Assembly: GCA_946699065.1 (NCBI GenBank)
Contig: CAMPDV010000089.1
Location: 434,001-498,000 of the forward strand
Source: Loxodes magnus
Lineage: Eukaryota; Ciliophora; Karyorelictea; Loxodida; Loxodidae
Length of the DNA: 64,000 nt
Reading direction: 5' to 3'
Shown: piece by piece, positions 3 to 62,833 of the stretch
How the letters are laid out: every line of letters starts with the position of its first letter
How positions within the stretch are numbered: the stretch's first letter is position 1
The notes under the pieces: model-generated
What the model was told of the DNA's origin: nothing
The model's input: the letters and a program-made list of their open reading frames with translations, nothing else
Database searches by the model: none
Position numbers and translations under genes: made by a program

Positions 3-1448
3 ATAATTGATTAGTTAAAAAAGCCTTAAATTAGTTCGATCAAAATACAGAATATTCAAAGAAGTTAAGTTGATGTCTTCTTTGAGAGCTAAATTAACTC
101 TTATGTCTATTTTATGGTGTCTGCATAGTATAGCAATTCAATAGCAAGTGATGATTTGCAATTTATAGTAGATAATTAGATTTAGGAAGAAGAAACTTTT
201 TGGAATGAAACCAAAGCAAATGAGACAAAATAAGTATTTGAAAATGAGTATCCAAAGCTTCCTTAAGCTTTATACTTATATGGTCAAAAAAATTAAATAT
301 ACAAGCATTTAAAATGCTTAAGCAACTAGTGGTTTACCATTAAGAATCTGCAAGCCTTCACTTCTTACAAAATCCTTGCTTATTAACTAAACACCTGAAT
401 AAATTCCACTTACACAGATTATTCAAAATGGTCAAACTTAACTACTATGAAGTTTAAAACTCTATAAAGAAAGAATTCATCAATATTAAACATTTACGAC
501 AGTAGAAAATAGAACAAGCTAATCGATATCGAAAATTTACAAAAAGGAATTAGCTTTGCTTTTGGAATTCCAGATAGTTAGATTATCTACTTGAACAATA
601 TTGGATTTGAACTGTATTAGAAAAATGCCTCTATTGATTAAAAAGAACTAACTACCAATGCTAATCTAACTTAAACATATCTAAGCATTAAAAATAACCC
701 CTTGATAACTTAATTCAGTGATTCACATATTTATTAGTTTCTAATATGCGATGATGCAAATTATGATGGAAAATCACCTTAAGAACTGCTTTCAAGAAAT
801 AGAACTGAGTTCTTTAAGGCATATTTCAGTAAAGTTTACGGATATATCAATTTAACTTACTCTTCCTATATGTATACTCCTAACTCAATTGAAGTTCAGC
901 TGTTTGGATTCCCTTAAACTTTAATCTTACAAGATAAAGCAGATAACGAAAAAACTGCCATTGATAGCTATAGATAAAGCTTATATACCTAATTTTACTA
1001 AAAGTACTAAAAATTGCTAAGTTAAAACTGGGGCAAAGTAAATTCTCCTATTTTGTTTTGGGTTGATAAACCTTAGTAAGTTATAGGAGTATTTGAAAGG
1101 GATATCAAATTATGGTATAACTAAACACATAAAAATTATACGTTCAAATTTTCATGTAGTATTGACTCAATTGTATACAGCACTTTGAGTAAAGAATTAT
1201 CTGACCAAGGCATTCAAGTCTAATAAGTAAAGACTAGTGTAAATGGATACAATAAAATAGTAGAATAGTATTACATCGATTATTGCTATTAAGATAAATC
1301 TCACTATGTTGAGTTTATCGTAGATGCTAGTTTTAGCTATGAAATTGACATAGTGCTTGGAACTGTCATGGATCCTTGGGGAGATATAGATGCCAGCGAA
1401 GTGTTTGTCTTTAAAATTCATAGAACATTTAGAGATGAGCAGCCTTGA
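3..1448 (+). CDS. Secreted, heavily N-glycosylated protein with an FN3-like segment (3' part only)
   Basis: Open from the left edge to a TGA at 1446-1448 (482 codons) once TAA/TAG are read as Gln and one TGA as Trp (LNTWINSTY). No initiator is visible, so the 5' end lies outside the window. Roughly the first 150 residues have the look of a fibronectin type III sandwich (WFTIKNLQAFTSYKILAY, then SKWSNLTTMKFKTL), a pattern common in secreted ciliate proteins. At least seven N-x-S/T sequons (for example NSTY, NLTT, NLTY, NQTH) argue for passage through the secretory pathway. No transmembrane segment or catalytic motif is visible in the part present. The C-terminus is short and charged (FKIHRTFRDEQP). 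The frame and stop are secure; the function is unknown and the FN3 assignment is tentative. Confidence 0.75.
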
Positions 1449-3209
1449 TTTTTATCTAACTATTTTAATATAAAATTCCTTTATTCAAACTAACTTAAAT
1501 TTCATTTATTGCTTAAAGCATATTTCTAAATAAGAATATTACTTATCAATCTATATGCTTATCAAAGCTTAAATATTTGAAAAAAGCAAAAACATTATTG
1601 ATTTCTTGCTCTTTCTATTTATTTCTAAAGGTTAATAGAGCTAAATACCAAAATATTAGATAAATGATATGCTATAAAGAATAATACTTTAATTTTCTTA
1701 GTTTTAGAGATCACGCTTAATATAAATATACGAATTTAAGTTATTTAAGCCTGTTTAAGATATTAATATATAAACTAATTTAGAAGAAAGCCTCTTTACT
1801 ATTACTTATACTTTGAATATATTAAATATGGTTGTGACTAAACTTTATAATATGTTTGAATCAAATTTCCTTTCTTTCAGTTTTGATAACTTCTATAATC
1901 TTATATTTTATATTAAAATTACTTAATTTAAAACTAGAAAGATAGTTAGTTAGAAATCTAGAACTTATAGATATTAAATTAAAACTATTTAATAGGAAAG
2001 AGATATGATAGTTATAGCCCTTTTATTTTATCTTAAGGTTAGATAATAATATGCCTCTTACTTTTAAATATGCCTTCTTAATCTACTTACCTTTCTTTAT
2101 TAAATCAAAATTGATGTAATTAACTTTAAATTACAGCTTTATATAATGCTTAAGCTAAATTTTTCACTAATAATACTTGAATATAGTAGATTTGGCAATG
2201 ATAGGATTCTATATATAGTAGAATATAAAGCATAAAGATATAAAGGCATTTAAAATAATTTCCTTTATATTTTAGCTTTAAACAGTAAAACAGCTACAAA
2301 TTTATATTACCTTCCATACACTAGGCCATTCCTTCTCTACTTATCCACCGTTTCTTCCTAGTTCATTATTTATACTTTTAGGGAAGAAAAATGATAAAAA
2401 TTTAGGAAAAGATATTTAAGTCTTTATAAATTAAATTTATAATATAAAACCTATGAGATATGATAAAGGACTACTAATAGTCAAAAGAGCATTCAATATA
2501 TCTCTATATATTAGAATAAGAATAGTGCACTAATATATTTAAAATCAAGCTTAGCTTTAACTATGAAGAAGCATTTCTTCAGATACATCAAATGGAATAG
2601 AAATTTCTTCTTATCTATATGGAGTAATTTAACTTATACGAATCTAAAGTTATGTATTATAGAATAGAGTCCTGAATATAAAATTGCTAATGTATTGATA
2701 ATAAAAAAAGGTTAAGAATATTCATTATACCATTGTTATCTAAATACCTAGCTGAAACTGATATTTCCTATTACCTATTCAATTCTTTCTAATTATTGCT
2801 TCAGTTCTTGTTTTTCAAAATACAATGATATTTAAACTCAAGCTGCTCATATTTCTTTTGAGAATAGTAACTTTACATAAATTTTTAGATTAAGAGTAGA
2901 AGTTTCAAGTATCAAGTTAGCGCTAAATGATTTTTTAATTTGTTTAAGAATTTACTATAAAATAGATAACTCTGGCTCTCATAAATTATCTAAAGAAGAA
3001 AATTGAAGATTGTAATCACTAAGCGTACAAAATATAACTGTTCCTATAACTAAGAATTATTGATATTCAATCACTAAGGATTAGTTAAATAAAGTGATAA
3101 TTGAAAATTTGAAAGGATTTAGTTAATCGATTAGAAGTAATAAAGAGCAGCTTTTGTTATATAGTTAAACACTTTTTCTCTTTTAATTTGTTTTTCTTGC
3201 TTATAAAAA
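1449..3209. other. Intergenic spacer
   Basis: AT-rich sequence between two genes on the same strand. I see no motif-bearing reading frame on either strand and no structured RNA. It must contain the promoter of the downstream carboxypeptidase gene, but no specific element can be named. Confidence 0.6.
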
Positions 3210-5948
3210 ATGAACTTTTTAAAACCTTCATCCGCAACTTTCGAACCAAACTGGGCTCAAAAGGAATTTTTCTTCGATTACTTGACGATTTCCTCAAAAT
3301 TCGACTCTGGAAACTGTACGCATGTAGAAAAATATGATGATTCTCATCTAGCAATTTGAGCAGCTCCAGATTGTGCTGAAACAATAGTGGAGAAAAATAA
3401 GAGATCATGATTTCATTTTTCAGTTGAAAGCAATAAGAGTACAACCATATGGTTTACCGTTAAAAATTTGAATGCGCATGGGAAATTATTCAAATAAGGA
3501 ATGAAACCTGTATTTCGTACAGAAAATACTGAATGGAGGAGAATAAAAGATCCCATTTCAGTGGAACAAATAAAAATAACTGATAAGAAACTTTACGAAT
3601 TAACCTATTATTTCACTTTCACAAGCAACAGAAAAGTATGATTTGCACTATGCTATCCATGATCATATGAAGATGCTTAAAAATTTTTGAACTTGCTAGA
3701 AATATAATTTTATTACTCAAGTGATTTGTACTTTTATAGGGAAAATTTAATAAACTCTGTAGAACATAGAAGAGTAGACCTTATTACTATTACATCTATG
3801 GATGGAATTTCTACGAATGAGGATAGAATACCAGGACTTTTCCCTGAGAATAAGGAACGCTGTCATAATTTTGAAGGGAAGTAGTATATTTTTATAAGTG
3901 CAAGAGTACATCCAGGAGAAACTCCAGGTAGTCATATAATGAATGGCATGTTGGAGTTTCTATTAAGTAATGATACAAGAGCTTAGCTTTTGAGAAAGGC
4001 TTTCGTATTTAAGTTAGTTCCTATGATTAATCCAGATGGAGTTTGTCGTGGTTATTACCGGGTAGATACATTTGGAAGAAATTTAAATCGTTTTTATTAA
4101 AGTTGCAACTAGAGTGAGCATCCTTCTATATGAGCAATAGTTAAGTACTTAAATTTCTTGGCAGGGCCTAATTTTTACGCATACTTGGATTTGCATGCAC
4201 ATGCAGGAAAATCAGGAATTTTTGTATATGGTAATTTCTTTGACGATTTTTTGAAGTAAGTTGAATCTTGCGTATTTGCAAAAGCTGTCTCTCTAAACTG
4301 CAAAAATTTTGACTATGAAAACTCAAACTTTACAGAAAAATAAATGACTGTAAAAGATAAAGCAGGCTAATCAAAATAAGGTTGCGGAAGAGTAGCCGCA
4401 TTAAAAATAACAAACTCTCCTTTTTGCTTCACAGTTGAAGCTAATTATCATTCAGGTAAATTTATCAATGAGATACCTCAAATAGCTGGAATAGAAGATA
4501 GATACACCAGTAATACTTCCACTCTATATGCAGGAGGTAAAGCACCAGATTTTTCTCCTGATGTATTGAAAGATTGCGGAAGAGGAATTTTAATATCTTT
4601 ACTAGATACCTAGGAGATAAACCCTTATTCGAGAGTAAGAGCAAGCTAATTCCAAAACATATTTAACATATCAGTTTCAGTTGCTCAACAGTTGTTATAA
4701 ATACCTCCTTATAAATTCTACAACTCTCTCAAAGCAATTTCGGAGGATCACGATGCCCTTATATAATATCTCAAAGATAAATGCAACTCTATGCAAAACT
4801 TAACTATCTAAAGAAATAAAGAAGATAAGCATTAAGTCAGGAATACTGTAACATAAAAGAACTTTAGTAATAATAATTCTACCATCAATACACCTAAGCA
4901 ATCGAATGTTGCTTCACCTGTATCCATGAAATAGCAACAAACTAAGCTAAACATTCTAGCTTAAAGCTTATAGGTAAATAGGGGTTTTGCATTAGACCAA
5001 GTTATTCAAAAGAAGTAAGGAACGTAGAATACTTAAAGTAAGTCATGAAGTAAGCAAGAATTCCGAAACTATCAACAAGATAATAGGACTATTAAATCCA
5101 GCCAAAATAAACGGCCTGAACAAGTTAAGCCTAGCAACAAGAAATCATTACAGTAGATTTAGTAAAAACCTTAGAAACAGTATCGAAAAATGAAAAATGA
5201 GAACAACTTGAAATAGAACTAAAGTAAAGAAAATATTCAAATATAGGTAAAGTAGCCTAGACCACCTGTTGTGTAAATCTCAAAATAAAAGATAAATGAT
5301 GAACATAAGACTCAAACTTAAAGAATGAATAAATCACCTATTCAGTAATCAAGAACTCTTAAGCAATCTAATTTAACCCCAGCAAATAAATAAAAAACGA
5401 TTAAAAGATAGTCTAGTGAATAGAATAATTAATAGACTTAGTAGAAATGTATAAACTACAAGTCTACTAAAAGCTAAAAATCCACTTAACCTTTGTATAG
5501 CGAAAAATAAATAAAGGTAACTAAAACTACGAAATAAAGACCTTCTAGTTAGAAGCAGATTAAACCTTAAACTACTCTAGACAATAAACAAATAAAAAAT
5601 TTAGTTGGTAATAGTTAATAAAATAATGAAGCCAAAAAAGTTAAAAATTTAAGCAATAAGAAAAGTTAAGTTATTGTACATATTAAAAACCCTATGATTG
5701 TATAAAAAACGAAGGCTGTACAATCTTCTAGAGTATCAAATGCATCAGTACTTAACTAAGGACCTTTCACTCGAAAGTCAATAAGCAGTATGAGAAGTTA
5801 GGATATTCTAAGAAATTCAGTAATTGATAAGCATGAGGCAACATTTTTAGAATAGAGACTGTCCAAAACTCCAGGGAAAGTTATTGAATAATTGGAAAGC
5901 GAAAGAAGTTTAGTCTAATCAAGTTCTTATCTAAATTAAGATGAGTGA
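3210..5948 (+). CDS. CCP5: Cytosolic carboxypeptidase, CCP5/AGBL5 type (tubulin deglutamylase)
   Basis: Predicted 912 aa, no intron. An N-terminal beta domain (about residues 1-190) is followed by an M14 zinc carboxypeptidase domain (about 195-500). Zinc ligands are visible: H234-x-x-E237 in VHPGETPGS and H329 in [14 protein letters not shown]. The catalytic Glu is E410 in [10 protein letters not shown]. The block [11 protein letters not shown]...RNLNRFYQ is also family-typical. CCP5 enzymes remove branch-point glutamates from polyglutamylated tubulin of ciliary axonemes and basal bodies. Six TGA codons fall at Trp (AIWAAP, RSWFHF, KVWFAL, YPWSYE, SIWAIV, KSWSKQ). The tail after about residue 520 is long, Gln/Lys/Ser-rich and probably disordered. 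The next in-frame TGA after 5948 lies in AT-rich sequence, so 5946-5948 is taken as the stop. Substrate choice is inferred from the family. Confidence 0.93.
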
Positions 5949-6894: not shown

Positions 6895-8204
6895 TCAATT
6901 TAGCTGCTATTGCCCTTCTTAGATATCTAAACTTTCACCTTCTTCTAAATCTTATTCCTCTTCCTCATAACTTGAATTAAGTCCCAACTACTCAGGATTA
7001 TGCAAAAGATTATTTGAAAAGCTTTTTCTCTTTTTAGAAGAACTTAATGGAATTCCTGAGTTTATAGGTAGTACATCAAAAGGAAAAGCATTTTCACTAA
7101 CTGTTGATCTCAAGCATGCAGATAAGAAGTTTCATGGTTTACTGATTGAAAAAGAAATAACAGTTCTTCCTACTTATATAGATATCTAAGAATCAAGTGC
7201 GATACATCTATTTACTTATATCAAAGTCCCAAATTTAGAACCGCAATCTTCTAAATAGAACTGCCTAAAATATAGAAAGCATACCCTTTGCTAAATCTTA
7301 TAAGAGCATGTTATCTTGATACACTGATGTCTGAAATTCGTACATCAGTATCATGGCCTCTTCCTAATTTTATTGTGTCTTTCTAGTTGACACTGATTAC
7401 ATGAATGCCTTTAGTACTATTTTTATCTTTGCGCAACGCTTCTAGTATTATATACTAAGAATCTGGCTTCGGAATTTCAATTAGTTCATTTTAATTTCCT
7501 TCTAAGTTTATCACATTTGGAAATTACTTTTTACATAATTCGCAATCCAATGATTTTCAAAAGAAAGAAACTGAGCTTTCTGATTATTTAGTAGTTAGAC
7601 GATTTTTTAACCATAATTGAAGACACTTAAGATGAACATATTTCATTGTTCCAGCACATTTACAAGGAGTTATTAATGGATTATCTTTGGAATATCTACT
7701 TTCAAGGCATATTCTACATGGCAGATTATTCTAACTATTTATATCATTTTCATCTTCTATACTCTTTTCGTTTCCTACTTCTGTTGGAAGTAAAATAGAA
7801 GTCAAAGGTTTAAGAGTACCACTAAGTTTACCATCTTCCGAAGTTTTAAATTCTTTTATTCGAAACTTAACTCTTCCAATCTTTATAACATCTCCCTCTG
7901 CAAGTCTGTAACCCTTATTTCCTTACTATGTTTTTAGTGCCTTTACTACAAGTCAGATTTTTTCATGATTAGGTACATATGATAAGCTGAACGAGCCATT
8001 ATAACTAATTAACTAACCTAAAAACTGAGTGCCTTCTGGAATATCTTTAGTTTCTAAATCTACCAAGCAGATGTCATTCCCATTTCTCATTATTTTACAA
8101 CTTCCAGTAGTTTTAAGAGACTTTTTTTTCACATTACAAGATTCATAATCAAAAAGACCATGTGAGTCTCTAGACCATGTGATAGTCTTTAAAGTAACTT
8201 GCAT
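6895..8204 (-). CDS. FHA - RING-CH - FHA protein, candidate membrane-independent E3 ubiquitin ligase
   Basis: Predicted 429 aa after removal of a 20-nt intron (7265-7284); the spliced length is an exact multiple of three. An N-terminal FHA-like region ends around residue 115 (GDVIKIGRVKFRI). A RING-CH (RINGv, C4HC3) finger starts near C163: CRICLE...TPCKCAGTMKYVHLKCLQLW...CELCK. The second FHA domain is about residues 262-340 (IKLGRGHDTDVRI, SVSRQHALIRF, FYLEDCGSKFGT) and holds the Arg, Ser and His expected for phosphothreonine binding. RING-CH fingers recruit E2 enzymes; FHA domains bind phospho-Thr. The inferred role is phosphorylation-directed ubiquitination. MARCH ligases usually have transmembrane helices, and none is seen here. 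The tail is acidic. The intron interrupts FHA2 between SKG and QFYLED. Confidence 0.9.
7265..7284 (-). other. 20-nt spliceosomal intron
   Basis: Reads GTATG...TTTTAG on the minus strand. Removing it rejoins the conserved FHA strand SKG/QFYLEDCGSKFGT; keeping it shifts the frame. Confidence 0.9.
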
Positions 8205-11286: not shown

Positions 11287-13008
11287 TCAATCTCTTAAAT
11301 ATAACATTTGAAATTAAGGCTTTATGGTTCTTATTTATAAAGGATATGGTAGATTTAGATAAGTTGGATAGGAGAGTAGTTTTGTATCTTGATGAAATGG
11401 GCATATAATAGTTGTTTGAAAATAAGGAGATTTAATAATAGCTTAAATAATTGCTTATATGATAGGTAAAATTAAATATCATTCATAAAGTTTAGGATTG
11501 TAATCTTTTCTTGGTTTTTTGCAATAATAGCATTTATCCTAGCAAGCATATGTAGTTTGCTGACATGCATCGCAAGTCCAATACATATAGTATTAGCAAA
11601 ACAACTGTGCTTCTTCATTTAACTAATGACACCATTAACATTAATAGGTTATATAAGAATTTTTCTCATTACAATTTTAGCATTTTCATTTTTTATTTAG
11701 CAAGTGAGGAATTGGTGTTTAGAATTATTCTGCGTATTTTTCTAATTCTTTGTAGTCTTTCATCGTTAAAATATCCTCTTCTTTAGATTCACTATTTACA
11801 TAAATTAGTATTGTTGGATGGAAATTACTTCGTATACACTTTCTAATAACATTCATTCATCCTGAAACTTACTAGACACAATCATCATCATAATATCTCC
11901 AGATATCCTCTTTAGGTTTGATTTTATAGAAGGATATATAATGCAATTCGCAGAAGCAAATCATTCCTCTAAGTACATAGTTAGAATGCATATCCTTATT
12001 AACCTAAGTAAGTTGAAAAATATCTAGAGTGTTTGTTATTAAAGTATATATCTTAAGAATGTCTAATACTTTAGGATTTTTTTTCCACACCATGTTTATG
12101 AGGAAATATTTAGGATATGACATTGGAGTTCTTACTTTGTAGCTTTCTTCAAAAATACATTTTTCGACGATTTGAGAAATTTCAGAGTCGGGACATTTAT
12201 TAGTAATATCTCTCTAGCAAGATCTTCTAATAGTTTCAACTAGTTTATGCATAGCTCTTTAAGATTTAAATTCTTCTTGTCCTTCAGGTAAAGGCAAATT
12301 GTCTACCAGTTCTTAAACATAGACTGTGAATATGTTGTTTCCATAATTATAAGGAATTGGCTCTCCCATAGCTCCGCATTTACATAAAAGATATTCAACA
12401 GACTCAAACCAAAAATATTTATGCTTAAGACACTATTTGGTGCAGGAATCTTCACTTTTTTAGAGTAAATTAACTTGAGAAAACATCTCATGAATATGTT
12501 ATAATATCGAGTTTAAAGCCTCTGAAGCGTCTGCCATTTGCATGTATACAAATTTCTAATCAAAATTATACAATTCTTGCCTTACTTTGTGAACTTTAAT
12601 CGTTTCATCGAATATTATACTTTTCTATTGGTACTCTTTAAACAAATTCTACAAAGAACACGATAAGCAAGAATGGTTTACTAACTATGCACACTGAAGC
12701 TTTAAATTTAGCAAATCTTATCTGAATTCCTTTAGATTTCATAAAATCTAAATAACTGAGTTCAAAAAGCAGTTCAATTAATTAAATTCGTTTTCTAATC
12801 CGACTCCGTGCTCTCCTACCTCCTAAGGCTAAATTTCCTCAATGGAAGGCTTTGGAATTTCTTAAGATTTCTAAAATTCAGAAGGTCTTTGTTCCATTTT
12901 TTAGTTGTTTCAATCTTTGTGCATCGTTATAAGATGTTAAGCATACTGCGTGATTTCCACTTAATTGCCAGGTGCTATACAAAACTTGCATGTTAAATAT
13001 GAGTTCAT
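11287..13008 (-). CDS. Ubiquitin-specific protease, USP53/USP54-like, with RanBP2-type zinc fingers
   Basis: Predicted 573 aa, no intron. An N-terminal C2H2-like finger (CKFC...HLITMH) precedes the USP fold. The Cys box reads GLENEFNQLNCFLNSVIQIL, placing the nucleophile at C80; HSCLSCSLQNLF and MADASEALNSILQHIHE match the USP53/54 branch. The zinc-binding insert carries LLCKCG. The His box is ELHYISFYKI, followed by WRYYDDDCVQQVSGW (the last Trp is TGA). After the catalytic domain come two W-x-C-x2-C...C-x2-C fingers of RanBP2/NZF type (KWKCQNC...CQWC; WTCDAC...CYYC), which often bind ubiquitin. Cys and His boxes are both present, so activity is possible. A TGA at 11287-11289 is taken as the stop; reading it as Trp would extend the frame by about 50 codons (RDWKKDITLSKK...), which I cannot exclude. 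Confidence 0.9.
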
Positions 13009-13681
13009 TTTATTATAATATAATATTTTAGTTTATTAGCATAATTTAACTTAAACTAACTTATAATCAGTCAGTACCTTTCTATTTAAATTCTTTTACC
13101 TCATGTTGATATAAAGTAATTTTATTCTGGTTTGTTTCTTTAGAAAATTATTCTGCTTTTAGTGCTTTTATCACCTCTTTAAAGTTATTAGTATTTAGGT
13201 TTTTTAGTATTTTTACAGATATATTAATACATTGATAGATGGCTTTACTTATTCACTATAGAAGATTTGAAGCTGAAACTAGAATTAACTAGCAAATATT
13301 GGAATCTCTAGAATATAGTGGTGAAGTAACTCTTACACTTTGAATTGCGAGCACTAGCTTAGCTCTTATACATAATGTAATAACTTTGCAAATGAATAGA
13401 TATCATTATACTTTAATACTTTTATAATATTTACCTCAAACTAATTATTAATCATTATAAGCTACAGTGCTATTCACTTTTTTATCAATTTACTTACAGT
13501 AACCACGATGAAGTGCTATTCTGCTATCTAAGCGAAAAGAAATATTGAATTTTATTTAATTATCTGATAATAAATACGATTAATGATAATAAGGAAGTTA
13601 TTCTGAGCTATATAATCAAATTTATTCTTTTTACATATTTATTTAACTATCAAAAAATAAGTCCGTTAAATTCCAAAACAC
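13009..13681. other. Intergenic spacer
   Basis: Lies upstream of the USP gene and downstream of the TBL1-like gene, both on the minus strand. It contains one 34-codon plus-strand ORF (13239-13343) of doubtful reality and otherwise AT-rich DNA. Confidence 0.55.
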
Positions 13682-24012: not shown

Positions 24013-24564
24013 TCAGCTGTCACAGTCACAGTCACATTTGCATGAATCACATCCACAGCATGAGCATGTTTTATTCTTTTTTTTCAAAGTTTTAACTTTG
24101 CTACTTTTTTCTTTTCTTTTTTAAAGGAATTCTGTTTGATCTTCTTGAGTATCTTCAACTGACTCAGCTTGATCTTCTGCACTTTCTTCTTCATCTTCCT
24201 ATTTATCTTCTACTTCATCTTCATCACCTATTATTGCTAACTATTCAATGCTTACTTCATCAGAATCTTTAATCATAGTTTTTGTCTTAATTGTGTTTCT
24301 CTAAATGAATTCTTCTTTTTCTTCAAGACTTTCATCAATCTCTTCTTAAGCCTCAGTAATATCCTCATCCTATTCCTCAAGCTAATCTTCAATTTCATCT
24401 TCATCACCCAATGCTAAAGCTGTGCTTTATTTAGTTTCATCACTATCTTCCATGTGTCCAAATTCTGCTTTCTCAATGAGTTTTAACTATTCACTAAAGA
24501 CTTTCATGGGATCGAAACAATTACATACAGCGAGTGCCAACATAATCAAAGCTAGACCTTTCAT
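24013..24564 (-). CDS. Secreted acidic protein with a C-terminal cysteine cluster
   Basis: Predicted 183 aa, no intron. A classic signal peptide (MKGLALIMLALAVCNC) is followed by a strongly Glu/Asp-rich body. Two related acidic blocks (ALGDEDEIEDQLEEQDED and IIGDEDEVEDKQEDEEES) suggest an internal duplication. A short basic stretch (KRKEKSSKVKTLKKKNK) precedes the last 16 residues, CSCCGCDSCKCDCDCDS, in which Cys alternates with Asp/Ser/Gly. Such a tail could bind metal or cross-link in a secretory granule; ciliate dense-core granule proteins are often small and acidic, but I see no family match. The start is the only ATG giving a signal peptide. Function unknown. Confidence 0.85.
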
Positions 24565-38360: not shown

Positions 38361-38415
38361 TTTGATTTGTTTAATATTCGTAATAATGTATCTATATTAT
38401 AAATCAAAAATAGTT

Positions 38416-39522: not shown

Positions 39523-39533
39523 AAAAGTAAAAA

Positions 39534-47272: not shown

Positions 47273-49739
47273 ATGAAAAAGGCTTAATCAGGATCTAATT
47301 TAAAACTAAAATCATTTTAATCGTAACCTTAAGATTCATGATTTAAGTATAGACAATTTCAATCCTAGTCAAGTAATGCATCACCTAAACGTAAGCCCAC
47401 TATAACTCCTTTTGGTAACAAAGAAAATCCTTTAATTAGAATGACTAGTTAATTATCCATGAGAAAGATTAATAGTCTCTTTAGTACTAATAAATACTCT
47501 GTGTCTTAGCCTTAATCCCCTGCAAAAATTAAAAATACTATATCGAAAAATAGTTTATGAGATGATGTAGGAAATATGTAAGAAAACGCTAGAATTTTCA
47601 CTTAATATGAAAAGCCATTTTATTTTCCAGGTGATGACCCTATCATAAAACTGGCTACTCCTGCTTAGTATGCAATTTAAGAAATACAATAGACATATAA
47701 AAGCATAATATGAGAAAATAGTGATCTATTATAGAACTAGAAAATTACTGAAGCTAAAAAGTTTAGGAAAGGATGGGAATAAAATAATGACAATTACTAC
47801 TAAATTTATCATACAGCCTTCAAAAAGGATATCACAAACGGCTATGACTTTGACAAATTTAAGTAAATATCTTATTAAATTAGTAAGAACTCTTTGTCTA
47901 ATCAACTTCAGTAGAATAGTAAAATTGATAAAACTGGCACAAGCGTTAAATTTTACCCTAATTTAATAATGCCAGTTATGAAATAGCCTACTTTTGTTCA
48001 GCAAAAACCACCAGAGCCATAAAAAACAGAAATGAAGGAACAAAGCACTCCAGTAGAAAAGAAGCTTACAATTGATGAATTATGTACTTTATTACCAGAT
48101 GTAAAGATAGAGAAGAAAATGATGAGACGATCAGGTGGATGACTTAACTTTTAGCATAGAAAATAAGGGGAAATTAAAATTCATTAATAGCAACCTTAAT
48201 CAGCTGGTATTCACTTATTTTGACATAAAATAGAAACAAGAGGACATATACCTGAAGCTAGAGAAGGGATGAGTCTTGTTAGTTATTTAAATCATTTGTA
48301 TTTGTTTGGAGGGTTTGGTGGACTTGGAAAATAAAACGATTTAAAAGTATTAAGTGAATATAATTGAGAATGAAAGACAATACTTAGTTAGCCTAAGCCT
48401 AAGGGAAGATATGGACATACTGCTGATATATGAACTCAATATATGATAATTTATGGAGGGTGTTCGAAATATAGATCAGGAAAAAGAAGATGTAATAAGA
48501 AAGTATGAATGTTCAATTTTGGTAACTTTTTTCATTATAGTTGAAGAGAAATGATCCAGTTTTTATAATTTTGGAATTATAGTATAAGGTAGAAGAAATC
48601 ATGCTTCAGCTGTCATTGGAAATACAATGCTAATATATGGTGGAATTAACTCCGACTCTTAACTTTTAAATGACTTAACTATTTTAGATTTAGAGTTAAG
48701 GAGAATGTGGCAGCCAAAAATAGCAGAAACTAAATCCAGACCTCATCGACTCCATTCGATGACAATGACTGTTGTTTATGACCCATGAACTTTGAAATAA
48801 ACTAACTTCAATATTTTTTAAGTTCCTACTAAACTTAAATTTATTGAGCATGAATATGAAAAAACAGGAATTTATATGTTTGGAGGATGCAGTAAGAAAG
48901 GGGCAAAAGGAGATTTCTGGCTAATAAATGTCAGAGAGCCTGAGATAGTTGGGAAAGAGCCAATGCTAGTTTTTAACAAAATAAAAGGATCGGGTAAAGC
49001 TCCTAGTGCTCGATATGGTCATTCTGCTATTTTCCATAATGGATATATAATAATTTATGGTGGAAAAGGAAATGAAAGTGAAAATTAATAGATAAATCTA
49101 TCGTCAGTTCATATATTTAATGTGAAAACTTGAATATGGGAGACTGTTAACATTTATGGAGACGTTCCACCTGGAAGATGAAATGCATGTATAGGTGTCC
49201 TAGGATCTAAAATAGTACTAATGGGAGGTTTGCAGTAGCATATATACAGTGGAACAACCATATATGCATTGGAAACAGATCCAAGCTAAGTCATTCAATT
49301 ATACAGAAATTATAAATAGAATAAAGAAATAGAAAAGCAGAAATTATTATAGGAGCAATTGGATCAAAGGCTACAAAACATTTAGTAAGGATAATCTAAA
49401 ATTACAAATGACAAACTTAAAAAAATGCTAGTAGTCAAAACTTTATAAAATGCAAAAACTCTAAAGAAGTTCAATTTTTCAGACTTGGAAGATGAAAAAT
49501 CTTAAAGTTTTGATTCTTCATAAGGAAGTAGTTTTAGATCATAACATACAGTTGAAGAGGAAGAACCGAAAGGTTAGAAGCAATGAATCTAAGAAAAAAA
49601 ATCTTAAAATGACAAAAATTAAGATAATAAGAAAGATCAAAACTAAAGTGATAATAACTTAGATGAATAAATTAAGAGCATTATAAAAAAAGTATTTAAA
49701 GGGAAAAAAAAAAAAGTAGGCTTCATTGTACCAATCTGA
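47273..49739 (+). CDS. Kelch-repeat (beta-propeller) protein
   Basis: Predicted 815 aa with a 19-nt intron (48522-48540). The first 310 residues are Ser/Lys/Pro/Gln-rich and probably disordered. Kelch repeats occupy about 315-665, with the hallmark double Gly (LYLFGGFGG, YMIIYGGCS, TMLIYGGINS, IYMFGGCSK, YIIIYGGKG, IVLMGGLQ) followed by Trp at the blade end. About six blades form a propeller. The tail (about 670-815) is a charged coil with a polyLys end. More than ten Trp are TGA (FWHKI, YNWEWK, DIWTQY, KVWMFN, EKWSSF, YDPWTL, GRWNAC), which makes this one of the best proofs of the code here. Kelch propellers are protein-binding platforms; no BTB or F-box is present to specify a role. The stop is TGA after GFIVPI. 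Confidence 0.93.
48522..48540 (+). other. 19-nt spliceosomal intron
   Basis: GTAAC...TATAG; splicing joins MFNF/VEEKWSSFYNFGIIV and puts the following kelch repeats in frame. Confidence 0.9.
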
Positions 49740-50799: not shown

Positions 50800-52428
50800 T
50801 CACTTTTTTCTGGCCTTAAGTAGAAGTTCCTCGTACTTTTTATTTCCTGGATACTTGCTATAAATTTTTGTTGCATACTTGTGGAAATTACTTTAGAGCA
50901 TTAGCTTTTAAATTTTTTTCTTTTAATTTGATTTTTTAAGTGATTTTGTTTTATCTAATTACTAAGTCTTTACTGAGTTCTACTATATCTTTTATGTCTT
51001 CTTTCTGATATTTTTCATAAGTGAATCTACATCAATCTTCTCAAATAGATACTTGTCATCTAAAGTGAGTTTATTCTTTATTTCGAGTGATGGCAATGAC
51101 TTTTTAATTTCTAATTTCTTACTTTAATTTCTCTTAAAAATCAAAGGTTGCATGAAAGTTTTTAAAAATGGAGTTGATTGAGTTTGTTTTAATGAATTTC
51201 TTTTCTATTTAATGGGATCTAAAATAGAAAGGTTAAGTTATCTATGCCTGCTATTTTTACTTTAGAAATTATTATTAATCTTTTTAAGAATTAGACTCTT
51301 GATAGATTACTTGAAGTTAAGGTTATTTTTATTTTCTTTCTTCAGAACTGATTTTAGTACTTGACTAAGTAATTCGTTTTTGGGTGCTGAAATGTATACG
51401 CTCTTACTTTTTAACTAATTATTCAAATCTTCCTCATTTTGGAAACTCTCTACAAAGCTAAATAACATTGACTGTCTTGAATTAGGACTTTTAGAAGCAT
51501 CTTAAGTCTTATATCCATAAGATATTACTTCTGTCTTATTTGGAGATTCAGTTATAGAAAAATTTTCATTCTCGTTTTTATGATAATTTTAAGCCAAAAA
51601 TAATTAAGCATTGCTTTAAAAAGGGAAAATAAGACTTTACTTCTTAGATCAAGGTTAGCAGTTAAGAAATTGGTCAATTCCATAATTTGTAATTTCGTTT
51701 TCCTTTTATATCATTTTAGTAGGACTTTAGCTACATGATAAAAGCTAAATTTAAGGATTTTTGATTTACTATTATCTTAATTTAAGAGGAGTAAGGAATG
51801 TAGAATTATTTCTAGATGATACTTAAGCTTCAGTTTATATTTATTAGTTAAAATCTTTATCAATACTTGCATTTAATTTAGACCATTTACTTTCAGTGCT
51901 TTTCGTGATGGATCCTTGTAAAGCTAATCTTTTTCTGTTATCGCTTATAAAAAAAGAGGAGTCTCTTTTACTTTCTCTCTTAAAATTCTATCGTTAATCT
52001 ACATTCAAAATAGTATTAGTTTTTAAGTTAGCCTTTTTTTATGATTCATATAGATGTTTTATTTGTGATTCGTACACGATAGCGTCATTTATTCTCGATT
52101 ATGCTTTTTAAAATCAATTTTGCTAATTTGTTCCAGCACATTTAGAACAGGAGCATGATTTTCGTCTAATTATATTAGCTATAGGTTCTTTTTATAAATT
52201 AATTTTCATATTAATGTTTAATGAATCATCTCATTCTTTGTTCTACACTTCTCTAGCACTTCTCTTGACTCCCTTTTAGTATTTAAACTATTCAAAGTGA
52301 TCTTTCTGATGTGAGTTATATGAATGGACAGAAAAAAAGCTATATCTAGTTTAGTTTTATCTTTAAAGCATTCTAATAGACTAAATTCTCTCCATATTAG
52401 TTTTATCAATTGTTTAAATATTTTGCAT
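50800..52428 (-). CDS. Ser/Lys/Asn-rich protein with a small Cys motif, unknown function
   Basis: Predicted 542 aa, no intron; the length is a multiple of three and it ends KARKK then TGA. Mostly polar and probably disordered, with many Ser-Pro or Ser-rich phosphorylation-like patches (SQSPTKM; DASKSPNSRQS). Near residue 95 there is a short basic Cys motif, IIRRKSCSCSKCAG, perhaps a zinc knuckle. Conserved-looking helical islands are KNELLSQVLKSVLKKEN and, at the C-terminus, HKYATKIYSKYPGNKKYEEL. Three or four Trp are TGA (KEWDDS, QNWFQK, QPWSKK). I do not recognise the family. Nothing in the neighbours suggests a role. Confidence 0.75.
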
Positions 52429-53964
52429 TACAGATTCTGCTATTTATAGCAAACGTTTAACCAACCATTTCATAAAGCAAACATATAATATTAATTATTT
52501 AACTATATATCCTCTTCATTTCCTTCTATTTAAACCATTTCCGAATATATTACCATAAGTTTGACAATTCATCTATAACATCTAACTCTTTTGCTCTTCA
52601 TTATTTCAGCCTCTATTTCATTATAATTAATTAAGAAAAAAGCTATCTTTTATGCTTTATTGCAAATTTTAGCTTACAGTATACTACACAATTTCTCAAT
52701 TAATGAGTAACTATTAAAGCTAGAAATGTTAAATGAAAAGCATGGCAACTACTAGTAAGATATACTGAAAGAGAATAAGTAAATATGAATATAAACTAGG
52801 TAAATAGTACTAGATAAGTAAAGTTAAAAGATATAAGATAAATAGATTAAAGCATTACAACTATATTATTATACACTAACCTATAAGAGAAATATTAATT
52901 TGCTTAATCATTGATATCTATCTTAAATCTTAATTAATATTAAGAAACTAGAAATACTCTTTCAAAGTTTCTTTTTTATTCCTTTAATATACAGAATTTG
53001 CTAATTTCTATATTATGGTGTTTTGGTTACTTTAGATAAGTTATGTGATCAAGTACATTTCTTGTTAAAATTTATTAATCTAAGAGATAAATTTCTGCTT
53101 TGGTTAATTAAGAAATTATATGGTCAATTTTATTAACTTATCATATATCTATTTGGATTGTTGTACCAAGATATTTTACATCATTATTTACCCTGCATCA
53201 AATTAAAGACAGGAAATTTTTAAGGAAAGTAAAACTAAAATTAGGGAATCTAATTTGATAACTTAAAAGAAAACAAAATAATAGAGCATAATGCTTAGTG
53301 TATTAAGTTAAATAATACACGTATATTAAACTAGGAGATGTACAATAGTAACATCTAATTATTATACTATAATTATTATAAAGCAAATCTAGCTTTTATA
53401 ATATATTCTTTACCCTTAATTTAGAATACTAGAAAGTTTCCTATTTAAAAAATCATTTTATGATTTATCTGTCAATCTAATTATATTTCAGATAACAATT
53501 TATACCAACTATATAATTCTAATTATATTTTATGAAATACTTTGAGTTTAAAAATACAACAATAGATTGAAAATTGAATTATGCAATATAAACCTTATTT
53601 TCTAGTATTAGATAAATAGTAATTATTATTTTTTCATATTCTTATTTCATTTTAGATGTACTTTTTATAAAAATCAGCTATTTACTCCTTTTTCATATTT
53701 AAATACTTTTAGAAAGCAATATCGAAGATATATTATAGCACAATTTTCCTTTCTTCTAAATCTAAACTTTGTTCTTCAATCTGTAATTTGGCTTTTATAT
53801 ATAAATATGAAGAACATGGAATATAAGGCTATAAGAACTAATTATTGCCTTTAAAGGTATGCTTTATATTCTAAACTTAATAAAGTGTATTATAAAAGAG
53901 ATACTTTCTTTAAGAAGTTAAAGAAATGCAGAAATTAAAATTATTAATTATTAACAATAAACCT
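52429..53964. other. Intergenic spacer (1.5 kb)
   Basis: AT-rich DNA between two minus-strand genes; no gene or structured RNA seen. Confidence 0.55.
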
Positions 53965-55467
53965 TCATCTTGAAGTCATATTTACTTTCATTAAGGTCAT
54001 CTTACTATAATCCTAACTGCTCTAGCCGAATTTAAATTTTGGAGTTAATAAAAATTTTCCTTTTTAAATATCTTCTTTTTATGTATTTTCTATGAAATCA
54101 CCACTTGCTTTAAAGCAATCCATTTTGTTTCTTACTCAGTTTTAAGTTTCGAAAGCATTATCTATCTTTAGTTATGGTAGCTTTTTAATTTTTTTTTAAG
54201 CTGGTGAAGTTTATTTACTTGTCTCATTTGAATGATATTGTAAGTGGGATTTAGACTTTATGTGTCTAAGAATTGAGCAAAAGTTTTACATTTTATAGTT
54301 AGATTTTTTTTCTATGCCATTATAAGGATTTCTTCTCATCTCAACTAAGAACTTTTCTTATTTCTTCTACTTCTTCTACTCTTTAGGTCTCACAGCATTC
54401 TGAGACTAAATAAACTTTAATTCAAGATTATTAATTAACTATTTAAAGACTACTTAGTTAGTTTTCTTCTGATAAGCTTTAACGTTTATTTAGTCGTCAT
54501 AATTCTTAGAGAAATTTTAAGTCAAGAACTGCTAAATGGTTTAATGTTGCTTCATTCTAAAAGAGTATTTAAGCTAAGCTTGATTTGTTAACATCTAAAC
54601 AGCTGAAAAAGGCAATTTCGATATGTTACTTTTTTTGATATAGTACATTTTAACCTTTTAGCTGTTTACTTAGGCAGTGTATTGAGATGGTAGATGAAGT
54701 AGAACTCCTTCATCTCCAAAGCAATAACCTTCTTCAGCTTGAGATATTTTTTTAGTTTTTTCTGAGAATTACTTTAAAAGTTGGCAGCTTCCTTCATAAA
54801 TCCAAAATATCTAGTCGGAAATTTCTCCTTCATTAATAATATGTTAACCTTTCATAGCTTCCTTGAAGACAAAAAAGTAAGAATATTTTTAGGCAAGATT
54901 ATAAGTAGCATTTTTCAGGGGAGGAATTTTGTTCTGTAAGAAGTTTATTTTTCTCAAAAAGTCTTTATTCATTTCTGTCTCCAATACTTTTAAAAAAACA
55001 TCTGCATGTATAAGAGCAAGTTCCGTAATACCTTTGGAAATTGCGGTTAATGTTCTGCTTGTCTTTCTCATAATCGCTCTTTCTCCCAAATGATGTCCTG
55101 TATGAACTGTGTTCAATAAATTATAGAAAAGTTAGTCTTTACTAGGCTCCCAGATTTCCAAGCTTCCGTTTAAAATGATATAGAAAAATTCACTTTTATC
55201 TCCTTTTTTAAAAAGTATTTAGCCATCTGATATCGAACGATAAGTCATTGATTGAACTAAATCTATTTACTAACCTTTTTCATACGAATTAAATAGCTAA
55301 CTATAAGGAGATAAATTCGCCAAAAACTTGCATATCAGCTTGATGTCACTCTAAGTTTTCTTTTTTTTTTGAAAAGCAATTTTGAGATTATTTATCTGCA
55401 TTTTGGTCTAATCTTCATCAACCATTATAAATGACTTAGAGTGTGAAAACGTTCAGACTATACTCAT
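53965..55467 (-). CDS. Protein with two cyclic-nucleotide-binding domains
   Basis: Predicted 500 aa, no intron. CNBD-A (about 75-190) reads GQILFKKGDKSEFFYIILNG, then HLGERAIMRKTSRTLTA. Its phosphate-binding cassette keeps Gly-Glu and the Arg (SRT) needed to hold the cyclic phosphate. CNBD-B (about 195-310) has GQHIINEGEISDQIFWIYEG and CFGDEGVLLHLPSQYTA, with Asp for Glu and no Arg, so it is probably degenerate. The tandem arrangement resembles PKA regulatory subunits and metazoan CNBD2-type proteins, but there is no N-terminal dimerisation helix or pseudosubstrate site. The C-terminal 180 residues are basic and low-complexity. Two TGAs are Trp (SIVWTF, QNWVRN). An internal start at residue 15 (MVDEDQTKM) is possible. 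Confidence 0.88.
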
Positions 55468-57191: not shown

Positions 57192-58334
57192 TCACCATTA
57201 TGATTGATTTAACGGAAGAGGAGCTTTTTAGGATAAAAGGCATACGAATTATTTCCCTATTTTCTTTTCTAAAAGCTTAATTATTTACTCTTTCAGTTAT
57301 TGTCGCTATATAAGGTTATTTTGATTTTAAATTTATTCTTCTAAATTTTCTTTTGATTCGGTTGGATTTTAATTGTCTTTGAGAAATTAAACAAATTTAT
57401 TGATGCAACAAGATTTGTGACTTAATTAGGCCATTTATATTTTTATTTGGTCTATTATTTCGTCAGTTTTTTAAGCAATTCTTCCTACTTCTAAATTTTC
57501 ATTGTTACGATATCAATCTATTTGCTAAGCAACTATTCTCTCAAAATTCTTTTTATAATGCTACAAGCAACTAATTTTATGATATTTATGGAAGTTTAGA
57601 TCAAAAAAATAATTTGTACCTTTCTTAACATTTTGGATATACTGATATATTGTTTGCACACTTTCTCCCATTCCAATTGCAATATTTTGCTTTAATTTAG
57701 TAATAATTCTCTCTTTTTTATCTGCTTTGCAAGTTAAAGAAGAGCATGTTTTATCAACTTAATCATTAAAATTATCTAAAACTTGCAAAACTTCTTAAAT
57801 TTATCTTTCTCTCTTTTTATAAGCTATCAATTTACTTTAAGATGCTCTTTCTTTGTTTTTTTAAATTGGAGGTTTAAAATCTTATTTTTTTATTTCTTGA
57901 TCACTTTGCAAAATAAATTTTACATCTTTCTTCTTTTCTATTTCTATTTCTTTTTCTATTTAAGTTTCTGTTTCCATTTCTTAATTTTTTTCATTCTCAG
58001 ATTTTTTTAATTAATCTAACTAAGGATCATCCTAGAACGCTTAATTTAAACTTTGACTTATTTTAATTACAAGTTAATTGTCAAATCATAAGCTTTAATT
58101 TAAAAAGTTATATCCTTTCAAAGGTACAACTCCTTCAAAAGTAAAAGTATTATCCAATTATTATAGTTCAACTATCTATCCTTCAGCCACGTACTTTATT
58201 TCCTGGAGATATTCAACTATTTCAATTAAGTTAACAGAGTTAGCCTTATAAGCTTTCGTAGTAACTCTTATAATCCTTTCTTTCTAGTTCTTGAGTACTT
58301 TTATATAAAACGAAATTTCTTCCATCTCTAACAT
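57192..58334 (-). CDS. Coiled-coil protein with an N-terminal beta-rich region, unknown function
   Basis: Predicted 380 aa, no intron; ends NQSQW then TGA. Residues 1-120 look folded and beta-rich (EISFYIKVLKNQKERIIRV; QQLDNTFTFEGVVPLKGYNF). A Glu/Lys/Gln linker (EMETETQIEKEIEIEKKKD) leads to a helical region with several Cys (CSSLTCKADKKE; KSCCINKFVQFL) and a final coil. Two Trp are TGA (QSLWFDN, IDWYRN), followed by TGG and the stop. The family is not recognised. The strongly biased plus-strand T-rich frames here are its antisense shadow. It follows the receptor-like gene on the same strand with a spacer of about 420 bp. Confidence 0.8.
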
Positions 58335-58756: not shown

Positions 58757-60685
58757 TCAGGATTTTAGGATAACGTTTATCGGTCCGTCGATGTTGCACT
58801 TAGAAAGAGCGACTCCGTTTGGAAGCTATTCGTCTCGGATTTAAAAGCTTATCTAATCTATGTCTTATTCTAACTCAAGTTGCATTTTTAAAAAACCTTT
58901 TATAGACTAGATAGTGTTATCTTAGTTTACATTTATAGACTTTTTCTATCCGTTTGGAAGTATGAAGATTAGAGAAATAAGACCTTGAGAACTTTGAGGA
59001 TTACTTTAATCAAAATATCTTCTTTCATCAATATGTCCTGAAGGTTCGTTTGCACTTCTTAACTAAGGCTATTACTAATTTGGCTAATTTACTTAAGGTC
59101 CCACATTATACATCTCTGCTCTTTGATGCTGTTTATTTTTCTTCGTTTTGAAATAGTAGATACACATCAAAAAGCACAATACAATTATAGCTACCAAGAT
59201 CAATATAACAATTATAGCTACAATTACTTTTTCAGTCGAATTTATCTTCTTATGATCTTCGTCTTCTTCATTTTCCTACTCAATTGGAACGGAACTATTA
59301 ATCAAATCTCATGTTTCTAAAGGAATATCTGTTTGTTACCCTCCCTCCCAAACATTAGAAAATAATCGAGCATATACTCCATAACTATCTCCATCTTGAC
59401 CAAAGCTTCTTCATACTTCAACGAAATTTTGGTTATCGAATTTCTTTACAGTATTATCTATTTAATTGGATAAATAATAGTGATTAACATGAAATTTCAT
59501 TGTTAAATTAGTTCCATTTTAATGAAGTAGTTATCCGTATATTCCATAATTTGAAAGATATTACTCAATATTCTCATCTGGTTATATCCAAGATACATAA
59601 AAAGTGCTACTGAAGCCTATTATTTAACTTGAAAATAAGTATTAGCTTTTAGTTATTTTGATGGCGCTTGTTACAGGATCTCTAAAAGAATCGTAGACTT
59701 TTACGTTCAGTTCTAGGTTTTAATTTTCAACTAAGCTAACCCATGACAAAACCATTTAACCAGAATCTAGAACAGCAGCCTAAAGATTGCAAGTTTCACT
59801 TCCTGTATCTATCTTGTAATCACTTTCTTCTTCAGTTGATTCTTCTCCAGTATTTATAGAGTAAACCTTTCCTAATATTGTGTTTTGCGTTTTCATCCAG
59901 AATATTATAAATTCATCTTCACTAACTTAAATAACAGTAGCGTTAAATTGGTAAATTGGCAAGGTAAATTTGGTTATTTCTTCTCCTTTCTAGTTGTACA
60001 AGATAACATTGTCTTCCTGCATTACATTCTCATAAATAATGAGGAAATTTTAGTTAGAAAAAGATTGTATTATGTAATGACCAAAGTCTAACTAAGCATC
60101 ATCATACTTGATTACATTCCCTTAAAGATTTCCATACCCATCAAATATAGATAGATAGAGCTCCTGCTTTTATGTGTCACATCAAGATACTATAAAATTT
60201 TCAGTTCCAAGACTGTTCAAATGATAATCTCCTTCAAATTAGGTAGAATTATCGCTATTTATTATAAAAGGATCAGAAAACGAATATCCATTTCTATCAA
60301 AGAATTATGCATATAGGTATTGCTATTCAGTTACTTTGTTTTAATAAATCCATACTACTAGATACTTAGAGCCTAAAGAAATAACTGAAGAGGAATATAA
60401 ATAACTAGTATTATTGTTTTTAACTATTTCAAATTCAGATGTAACTTACACACCCTTCGAATCAAATATTCTTCCTTATATACTTGTTTAACTTACAGTT
60501 CCATTATCATGAATCATAGTAGTTCATGTTAAAAAGAAATCTTCCTTACTCGCAGCAACGGATTGAAGAGTTTGTGCTCCTTACGTAAGTTTATTAACTT
60601 AAATCTCCTCGGTTAAGGGACTAATATACTGAGTAGCACGAATATAAACTTCTGTTAATATTAAAAGAACCAAGAGTTTTTTCAT
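58757..60685 (-). CDS. Type I membrane protein: extracellular propeller-like ectodomain, one TM, cytosolic ubiquitin-like tail
   Basis: Predicted 642 aa, no intron. The signal peptide is MKKLLVLLILTEVYIRA. The ectodomain (about 20-485) has spaced repeats of the type V-x-W...DG-x-x-YG-x-Y-A-x-x-F (SKYLVVWIYQNK...YLYAQFFD; NFVEVWRSFGQDGDSYGVYA), suggesting a beta-propeller. A single hydrophobic helix spans about 487-513 (VIVAIIVILILVAIIVLCFL), followed by a stop-transfer basic patch (KTKKNK). The cytosolic part ends in a beta-grasp-like segment (about 570-642): LISLIFILPNGQKKSINV, DNTIQSIKGFLKMQLEL, ISFQIRDEQLPNG, GPINVIL. It lacks a C-terminal Gly-Gly, so it would act as an integral domain, not a conjugated modifier. 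The TGA after LKS is the stop. Surface receptor or adhesin is an inference. Confidence 0.85.
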
Positions 60686-61071
60686 TTTCTTATTATATTA
60701 GCAGTCCTTATTTCTATTTATTACTTTAATTTACCTTTTTTAACAATATTTATTGTCTCTTTTGTTTATTAAGATCTTCATTTTGCAAAAACCTTTTAAA
60801 CTCTATCTTAGTAATTTACTTCTGATCTCTTGATATTTTAGTATAACTTAATGTAACAGCTATCCACTTTGTTGTTTGTCTTAGAGAACTTTTCAAATTA
60901 TCATTCAAATTAAAACTCAAAAAGATAAAATTTAATGCATACCTTAAAATTTATTAATAGACTTAGTATAATAAAATAATACGTTAAGTCTGATGTTTAA
61001 TATATTAAATAAAATCAAAGTTAAAGACTAATAATTATAGTTTAAATTGTTTACAATTGAATTATCATTTT
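60686..61071. other. Spacer between two minus-strand genes
   Basis: About 385 bp. If the intron at 61092-61119 is not used, the upstream frame would run into this spacer and end with a low-complexity tail, which I consider less likely. Confidence 0.5.
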
Positions 61072-62833
61072 TCATAGAGGGTATTGCTATTCTATATTTA
61101 AAATTTATGTGAATCTTACCTACTATCGAATTTTTTGAGCTGTTTAAACTCTTAATTAGATCGCTTGCATCTAAATCTTTCTTATTTTTCTTTCTTTGCT
61201 TTATCTTAGGCTTATTATTTTACTAATTTTTATTGCTTTATTATTTATCTATCTGATTGGCTTACATACTTAGCTGTTGAAAGTTATTTATTTCTTCAAC
61301 CTATTTATTCATTTCTTTATTTCTGAATTTTTGATGCTTGAAAAGGTTTGATTTCATGTTGTTAATATCTTTCAAACTGAAGATATCAAACTTTCTTTAG
61401 TGAGGTGATTGACTTAAATCAGTGACTGCTCTTCAGAAATCTATCTCTTACTCATGCTCTTTCTTTTTTAGATGGTCTTTTATCTTTCTTAATTATCTCA
61501 ATCTTTCCTGCTTCTCTATAGAATAATTTAAGTACTTACTATCTTATTGCTACCTCCATTTCTTTATTTCATCCTTATGCTGTTAGGTGAATTTATTACT
61601 TCATTTGCCTATTACTTACCTTTCCTCTTCTGATATTCTAGGTTTTTAAGAGAAAGGTATACTAAAAGGTTGACCAAAAGGCTTTAGCTTTTATTTTACT
61701 TTTTCAACGTTGTGGAAGTCAAATAATTCATAGAGCATTCATCTCTTTTCTTCGAGAGACTTTTGACCGTAGTCTCTCTAATCTAGATTTTCAAATATGT
61801 AAATAGCAACATCATCTAGTCCATTTGTGAACCCATCATAATACATTGTCCTATTAATCGAATTATTTCTGTATATATCAACTAAAACCTTATGAGAAAC
61901 ATAACCCGTAGAGCTATTTTTATCAGAGGCTTCAATAATTCCAAAGTCTTTAAACATTTTCAATCACTTTCCTAACATGAAACTATGATTCATCATTGTT
62001 ATTTTATCAAATGTAGGACTTGTTCCATAGAAATTGAACTATTTTCCATAATACTCAAAGGTAATTTACAGGCCTCTTTAGTATTTTTCTTCATGTTTCT
62101 TCCATCATTAAACCTCATTTTATTCATTTTGCTTTATTTTTTGTTTGATATCAATCATTGTTTTCTTGATTCTTTCCAATTCTTGCTAATTATTAGTTTT
62201 TATCCTACTCCTAACTAATTGTTCACATTCCTAAAGTTCCTTCTTTAAGCTCTAAATTTAGTATCCTCTAGACTCAATTTAACTGATTCTGGGAGTTTAA
62301 AATCTAGAGAGTTTCATAATTTAAGAATTTTATCCATGTTAAGAATGTTCAGGTAAAGCTTAGCTCTTTATTTAGAATTCACTAGATCTCAAATCAATTT
62401 CTCTTAAGGCTAATTACTATCCCTCAAAAATTTTCTGTTTATTTTACTGTATTACTTTGAGTTTTAGGGGTATTGGCTTTTAAGTTTCCTAAAATTTAGA
62501 ATGCTAAGGAAAAGGAGTTATTGAATATTTATAGTTTTCATTGGTTGCACTATAATCTTAAAAACCACTAAGCTAATTAATTTTATTACTAGCTAGTGCT
62601 CTTTCAGTATTTGGAAAAATTTATGACCACATGTTTTAACAAACTCCGCTGAATCCTTAATCATAATCCATTAAGTTTTCTATATTATCTGCCTTTTAAC
62701 TAATTAGTTTGCTTAGTCTGATAGGATTTTAAATTTGTACGCTTTGAGAATTAGATTCTGGCTGAGATGTTTTCTACGAATTTGCTAATTTGATTTCGTA
62801 ATCAGATTGCTTAACTTGAATTAAATTAGACAT
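61072..62833 (-). CDS. Helical ciliate protein with a p25-alpha/EF-hand-like central domain (tentative)
   Basis: Predicted 577 aa with a 28-nt intron (61092-61119) three codons before the C-terminal run; the spliced length is a multiple of three. The N-terminus is polar (SQPESNSQSVQIQNP). A coil (IQSLKKELQECEQLVRSR) precedes a compact domain at about 255-375: FEYYGKQFNFYGTSPTFDKI, GKWLKMFKDFGIIEA, VLVDIYRNNSINRTMYYDGF, GLDDVAIYIFENL. That layout (flank, KxFKDF, helix, MxYDGF, helix) resembles the p25-alpha/EF-hand-like modules common in ciliate axonemal proteins. The C-terminal third is a basic coil. Trp codons written TGA include VQWWKK, GKWLKM, KRWMLY, GKWSNK and DFWRAV. The function is unknown; a cytoskeletal role is likely. 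Confidence 0.82.
61092..61119 (-). other. 28-nt spliceosomal intron near the 3' end
   Basis: GTAAG...TATAG on the minus strand. Splicing leads to VEQQYPL and an immediate TGA; without it the frame drifts into spacer sequence. Confidence 0.7.

Follow-up and report, generated by a model that had tools for sequence, protein, structure and literature searches.

Evidence that TGA is both a tryptophan codon and the stop codon in a 64,000-nucleotide stretch of Loxodes magnus DNA

RESULTS

The Window Uses the Karyorelict Code

We analyzed a 64,000-nucleotide stretch of Loxodes magnus DNA (assembly GCA_946699065.1, contig CAMPDV010000089.1, positions 434,001–498,000, forward strand), referred to here as the window, in whose own numbering positions within it are given. 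Within its genes TAA and TAG stand for glutamine and TGA for tryptophan, and TGA is the terminal codon as well. We put at roughly 96% the probability that the window is karyorelict nuclear DNA written in NCBI translation table 27. This table assigns Gln to TAA and TAG; TGA means Trp inside a coding region and stop close to the mRNA 3' end. A first-pass annotation made from the letters alone had proposed this table, and the identification is supported by codon meanings, terminal-codon tests, intron length, and the codon pattern before stops. The code is real, was correctly named, and is already in print for Loxodes magnus (PMC11441545). The published signature of the code can be seen in the window from sequence alone, which makes the window a good example to work through, and a single codon for both Trp and stop poses the question of how ribosomes distinguish the two.

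Meaning of the Three Codons inside Genes

Gene models were built without presupposing any stop codon and genes were named by Pfam; a second model required a TGA stop, and 21 genes, of which 20 are closed, were curated. The 11,224 codons of the curated genes include 480 TAA and 261 TAG as sense codons, and in-frame TGA is about as common as TGG (79 versus 68). To keep the aligner from favoring any reading, we replaced TAA, TAG, and TGA alike by X in the proteins of eight genes before comparing these with solved structures. At the 28 masked TGA sites Trp scored best (43.5 versus 17.3 for Tyr), and Gln was best both at the 76 TAA sites (31.8 versus 21.7 for Glu) and at the 37 TAG sites (27.5 versus 18.0 for Lys). 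As a control, 50 of the 57 standard codons represented by four or more sites recovered their standard residue. Bootstrap support was moderate, at 85% for TGA as Trp, 76% for TAA as Gln, and 74% for TAG as Gln. When previously omitted alignments were added, Trp still came first for TGA with a smaller margin (16.0 versus −0.3 for Tyr, 29 sites, bootstrap 73%), and in this enlarged set 9 of the 29 TGA sites have Trp in some homologue. The first-listed homologue has Trp at 7 of 28 TGA sites as opposed to 0.8% elsewhere (p = 1.9e-9), and Trp, Phe, or Tyr at 13 of 28 as opposed to 10% elsewhere. The kelch columns in this test were taken from an earlier model with a 34-nt intron, since superseded by a 19-nt intron; they are located outside the altered stretch.

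Individual sites can be followed in several genes. In the cytosolic carboxypeptidase 5-like gene (3210..5948, + strand, stop TGA 5946–5948), sense TGAs at 3357–3359 and 3408–3410 fall at Trp residues of cytosolic carboxypeptidase-like protein 5, and three further TGAs align to Phe, Phe, and Tyr. A sense TGA of the LisH-WD40 (TBL1-like) gene (13650..15079, − strand, 17-nt intron 13729–13745), at 14246–14248, is aligned to a Trp of TBL1XR1; the stop TGA of this gene lies close to the C terminus of the human protein. The CNG/KCNH-like channel (39534..42403, + strand, 17-nt intron 41509–41525, stop TGA 42401–42403) has 13 in-frame TGAs, of which those at 40059–40061 and 40329–40331 are aligned to homologue Trp. 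The former lies in the S3 motif STWFII and is one of five examples that the first-pass annotation gave of TGA at conserved Trp; here each of the five homologues printed has Trp, and four of these are KCNH1 or KCNH5 chains.

The other four examples fared less well. In the USP (UCH) gene, a USP54 relative (11479..13008, − strand, stop TGA), a sense TGA at 12739–12741 falls at a homologue Trp. The TGA of VSGWMNV in this gene plausibly corresponds to a homologue Trp that sits one gap column off, and the same holds for the YNWEWK motif (48365–48373) of the kelch gene (47273..49739, + strand, 14 in-frame TGAs, stop TGA), where the LZTR1 Trp is one gap column off. The second kelch motif, DIWTQY (48431–48433), faces Tyr in LZTR1 and Ser or Asp in KLHDC2 and so does not mark a conserved Trp. 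The TGAs in the RasGEF and channel domains are mostly at variable columns, and the RasGEF example QIAWELR (TGA 37473–37475) is therefore wrong; three homologues have Asp, Lys, or Gln there. The RasGEF gene (36308..38204, stretch to 38279, + strand) contains 10 in-frame TGAs, and the three within aligned columns are all away from conserved Trp. Judged by these alignments, two of the five examples are wrong and two are near matches only.

The idea that TGA is shunned at conserved Trp was entertained and dropped. TGG matched a homologue Trp in 15 of 19 cases and TGA in 7 of 28 (within-gene permutation p = 0.01–0.06), with the TGA matches rising to 9 or 10 of 28 if a Trp one column off is accepted. 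Masking disfavors TGA in this comparison, however, and the kinase count given below points the opposite way.

Further cases were found when the whole assembly was searched (705,730,643 bases in 7,843 contigs; a 706-Mbp macronuclear assembly is published for Loxodes magnus (PMC11441545)). A kinase pattern ending in DxWSxG, with a TCN serine, has TGA at its Trp in 505 places and TGG in 18, and the reversed-sequence control gave no matches to this pattern. By eye, one repeated kinase-domain family (on contigs such as C544, C570, and C587) makes up 81 of the 100 TGA places listed of the 505; outside it are 19 TGAs among the same 100 and 13 TGGs among all 18. Two intact actin genes show the double meaning of TGA more plainly than any other case. 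One (L051) has TGA at conserved Trp 81 (reference position), the other (L052) at conserved Trp 81 and 342, and in both a stop TGA follows the C-terminal Phe. Some diverged actins use TGA at conserved Trp. Among the near-identical copies of one actin gene (G000:C266, C711, C437, and others), the Trp codons were read in L023, L028, L068, and L069, and each of these copies has TGG at the four conserved positions.

TGA as the Terminal Codon

To locate the terminal codon we used 22 gene ends called without stop information. The eight codons around them contain 15 in-frame TGAs against 0.8–2.3 expected, making TGA the most enriched codon. An in-frame TGA lies within five codons of the end in 14 of the 22 cases, compared with 3 and 4 for the two remaining frames. 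Within the same distance, TAA occurs at 12, 11, and 9 ends, frame by frame, and TAG at 3, 4, and 6; neither has a clear frame preference at gene ends, and neither is a regular stop. In a likelihood comparison of all 64 codons as terminal codon, TGA came first, followed by GAA at −39 log units, with TAA and TAG at −64 and −70.

The first-pass annotation had further stated that every gene can be closed with a TGA and that TGA is the only stop. The first statement is borne out in part: it holds for most ends, and two genes lack a close TGA. After coding composition ceases in the RasGEF gene, the next in-frame TGA is at codon 24, and the stop-requiring model closed this gene at TGA 38186–38188 by way of an assumed extra 20-nt intron. 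For the gene ending near 61049, the next in-frame TGA after coding composition ceases is at codon 43, and the stop-requiring model joins the gene to its neighbor. The second statement agrees with most of the ends examined, the exceptions being four loci elsewhere in the genome where TAA stands at the predicted end; these are considered further below.

Conserved families across the assembly allow gene ends to be predicted by homology. Histone H4 ends GFGG-TGA in 9 of 9 matches, with differing 3' flanks, and canonical H3 ends RGERT-TGA in 5 of 5. Four of six H3 variants end at a TGA three to five codons past RGEK, and two have TAA there. The remaining 20 of the 31 histone-family matches all have an in-frame TGA 6 to 53 codons past the match, at which the GC content drops from 0.29–0.46 to 0.15–0.25. 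The best 30 of 96 actin matches are near-identical copies, all ending HRKCF-TGA. In 20 further actin-family stretches, two of which are again copies, TGA comes right after the C-terminal residue in 11, one codon later in 4, and at the ninth codon in 1; TAA stands at the end in 2, and the end could not be placed in 2.

The surroundings of stop TGAs also differ from those of sense TGAs. Mean GC content over 60 nt is 0.173 after 20 stop TGAs and 0.284 after 69 sense TGAs. In the 20 closed curated genes the 29 codons upstream of the stop contain no sense TGA; the nearest, at 30 codons, is the final sense TGA of the ABCG transporter (32319..34097, + strand), which KYKQRR-TGA closes past its final hydrophobic stretch. 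The last 20 codons hold 9 TAA against 16.5 expected (p = 0.03), and TAG is not fewer (10 against 9.4 expected). This comparison is partly circular because the gene models required a TGA stop. The same pattern before stops is in print for Loxodes magnus (PMC11441545).

Observations That Weigh against the Reading

Several results do not favor this assignment of the codons. When residues were substituted for TGA in Pfam domain searches, Trp gave the lowest score of the 20 residues in RasGEF (126.9; others 127.1–132.3; X 129.7) and came seventh in Ion_trans (66.4), where Gln was first (67.7; X 64.2); Ion_trans_2 was indifferent (Trp 41.1, X 41.1). For TAA, with seven residues tried, Gln was first in RasGEF (138.5; Lys 137.5) and Glu in Ion_trans (69.3; Gln 68.7). 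For TAG, with four residues tried, Lys (132.4) exceeded Gln (131.8) in RasGEF, and Glu, Lys, and Gln were level in Ion_trans. Pfam substitution thus neither singles out Trp nor separates Gln from Lys and Glu. Some TGA sites with Trp in one homologue carry other residues elsewhere: the sense TGA at 17707–17709 of the sugar transporter (MFS) gene (16653..18256, − strand, introns of 22, 20, and 20 nt, stop TGA) faces Trp in GlcP and STP6 and Glu in GLUT3, and two bacterial carboxypeptidases have Ala at such a site. The scarcity of TGA before stops is by itself not significant (p = 0.06 to 0.12): the last 20 codons hold 0 sense TGAs against 2.2 expected (p = 0.12), and a permutation over 25 codons gave p = 0.06. 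When the terminal-codon test was varied by making the sense score neutral, AAA came 6.8 above TGA; we think that this variant is a flawed control, because it treats a very common codon as if it were rare.

TAA at a homology-predicted end was found in two Arp-like and two H3-variant loci, which make a small apparent exception to TGA as the only stop. The Arp-like genes L063 (G000:C10:669567–671186) and L064 (G000:C193:129281–130870) have TAA at the predicted C terminus, with the next in-frame TGA at codon 24 and codon 41, respectively. In one H3 variant (L084/L093, G000:C34:504328–504950) a TGA follows the TAA five codons on. In the other (L087/L092, G000:C327:221690–222394) the predicted end reads TAA-TAA-TAA; the 109 codons fetched beyond it contain no in-frame TGA, and no GT-AG span of 15–35 nt lies close by. 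An H3 paralogue (L085/L094, G000:C146:568451–568950) has TGA at the place where these two variants have TAA. Each of the four loci may have a C-terminal extension, be a decayed copy, or truly end at UAA.

The point of interest that is left is a possible residual stop function of UAA. It appears unlikely that the Loxodes eRF1 retains weak UAA recognition, so that UAA too could end translation near the mRNA 3' end. If true, such recognition would account for the thinning of UAA, and not of UAG, ahead of stops and for an H3 variant that ends in TAA-TAA-TAA while its paralogue has TGA, and table 27 would be incomplete for Loxodes magnus.

Alternative Codes

The TAA-ending Arp-like and H3-variant loci, together with the depletion of TAA before stops, might be read as signs of the Condylostoma-type code (table 28), which gives each of the three codons a sense meaning and a stop meaning. 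The code described for Condylostoma magnum shares with the window a sense meaning for all three codons and a choice between stop and sense by context (PMC4967479). In the window, by contrast, TGA alone is enriched in frame at gene ends, and TAA and TAG are far worse terminal codons; TGA also ends H4, canonical H3, and the other histone-family loci throughout the matches counted above, and the introns measure 17–22 nt rather than the 15–16 nt given for heterotrichs (PMC11441545). We regard table 28 as very improbable here, and it is unnecessary, as the first-pass annotation had said. The Blastocrithidia code is alike in that TGA is Trp and that one codon is both stop and sense, and differs in that TAA and TAG are described as Glu and TAA as the stop (PMC12153298).

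Could TGA be a stop only, with the in-frame cases arising from pseudogenes, unseen introns, or assembly errors? Nothing speaks for this beyond the non-conserved columns at many TGA sites, and it is already contradicted by the intact actins; the 79 in-frame TGAs are spread over 17 of 21 otherwise open genes, and 505 kinase places with TGA at DxWSxG would have to be explained away. We give it practically no credence. No more can be given to a residue other than Trp (Cys, Arg, or Gln, for example), which draws on the preference for His, Gln, or Asp over Trp in the RasGEF and Ion_trans substitutions and is opposed by the masked sites taken together and by the kinase and actin Trp positions. Table 27 as described for Loxodes magnus (PMC11441545) and Parduczia sp. 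(PMC4967479) matches the window in TAA and TAG as Gln and TGA as Trp and stop, in sense TAA, not TAG, being thinned before the stop, with sense TGA apparently thinned there too, in introns mostly of 17–25 nt, and in AT-rich 3' flanks. From these accounts there is no established difference, the published UGA as sole stop standing against the four TAA-ending loci.

Decoding Machinery

Under table 27, the meaning of TGA would depend on its place, Trp inside the coding region and stop close to the mRNA 3' end. Swart et al. (2016) proposed translation as the default, with eRF1 winning where the end of the mRNA is close (PMC4967479); the window, with its sense TGAs away from stops and its AT-rich 3' flanks, seems to fit this proposal. 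The canonical motifs of eRF1 are TASNIKS and YxCxxxF. In the unusual stop-recognition region of the Loxodes eRF1 gene (L018, G000:C196; L019 is a second copy) we found GRAQNIKS and FLCENTF, and the gene has 13 TAA, 7 TAG, and no TGA inside. For Loxodes, a Trp tRNA whose anticodon stem is shortened has been reported (PMC13092985). A search of the assembly for a Trp tRNA(CCA) with a 4-bp anticodon stem, by one anticodon-arm pattern, gave 2 one-mismatch places, with no tRNA there, as opposed to 4 in the reversed control. Elsewhere, tRNA matches are arrayed in tandem on G000:C103, C158, and C78, at regular intervals of about 527 or 1752 bases, and eight other tRNA loci (L001–L008) are tRNA-Lys(TTT) by ARAGORN.

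Gene Models and Remaining Genes of the Window

Errors of the stop-requiring model in the middle of the channel, at the ABCG end, and in an extra carboxypeptidase intron were mended by homology in the curated set. Kept out of this set were the genes at 15900 and upstream of 61049 and the small models 33674–34121 and 55562–55764. The introns that homology supports measure 17 to 22 nt; those of Loxodes magnus are reported with a mean of 19.3 nt and a mode of 17 (PMC11441545). An ARAGORN scan of the window found no tRNA, and an Rfam scan at gathering scores found no RNA family in it.

The remaining genes on the + strand are one of unknown family with one sense TGA (114..1448, stop TGA), a coiled-coil gene rich in TAA and TAG for Gln (20776..22864, stop TGA), and a centrin-like EF-hand gene with a 21-nt intron (23063..23662, end SSDED-TGA). 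On the − strand, a RINGv gene (6895..8204, one 20-nt intron, stop TGA) has a part that we take by eye to be FHA-like, and the OST3/OST6 gene (43993..45061, 19-nt intron) reaches its TGA 23 residues beyond the last residue aligned to MAGT1. TGA is also the stop of the other − strand genes, namely the TBL1-like gene discussed above, a short acidic gene (24013..24564), a leucine-rich repeat gene (26695..29889), a short gene with no Pfam match (34618..35022), two genes of unknown family (38416..39474, rich in TAA and TAG, and 50800..52473), and a cyclic nucleotide-binding gene (53965..55425), and, in the model, of a gene with no Pfam match (57192..58334). The last interval, 58757..62833 (− strand), is one gene in the model and is probably two, the upstream part ending near 61049.

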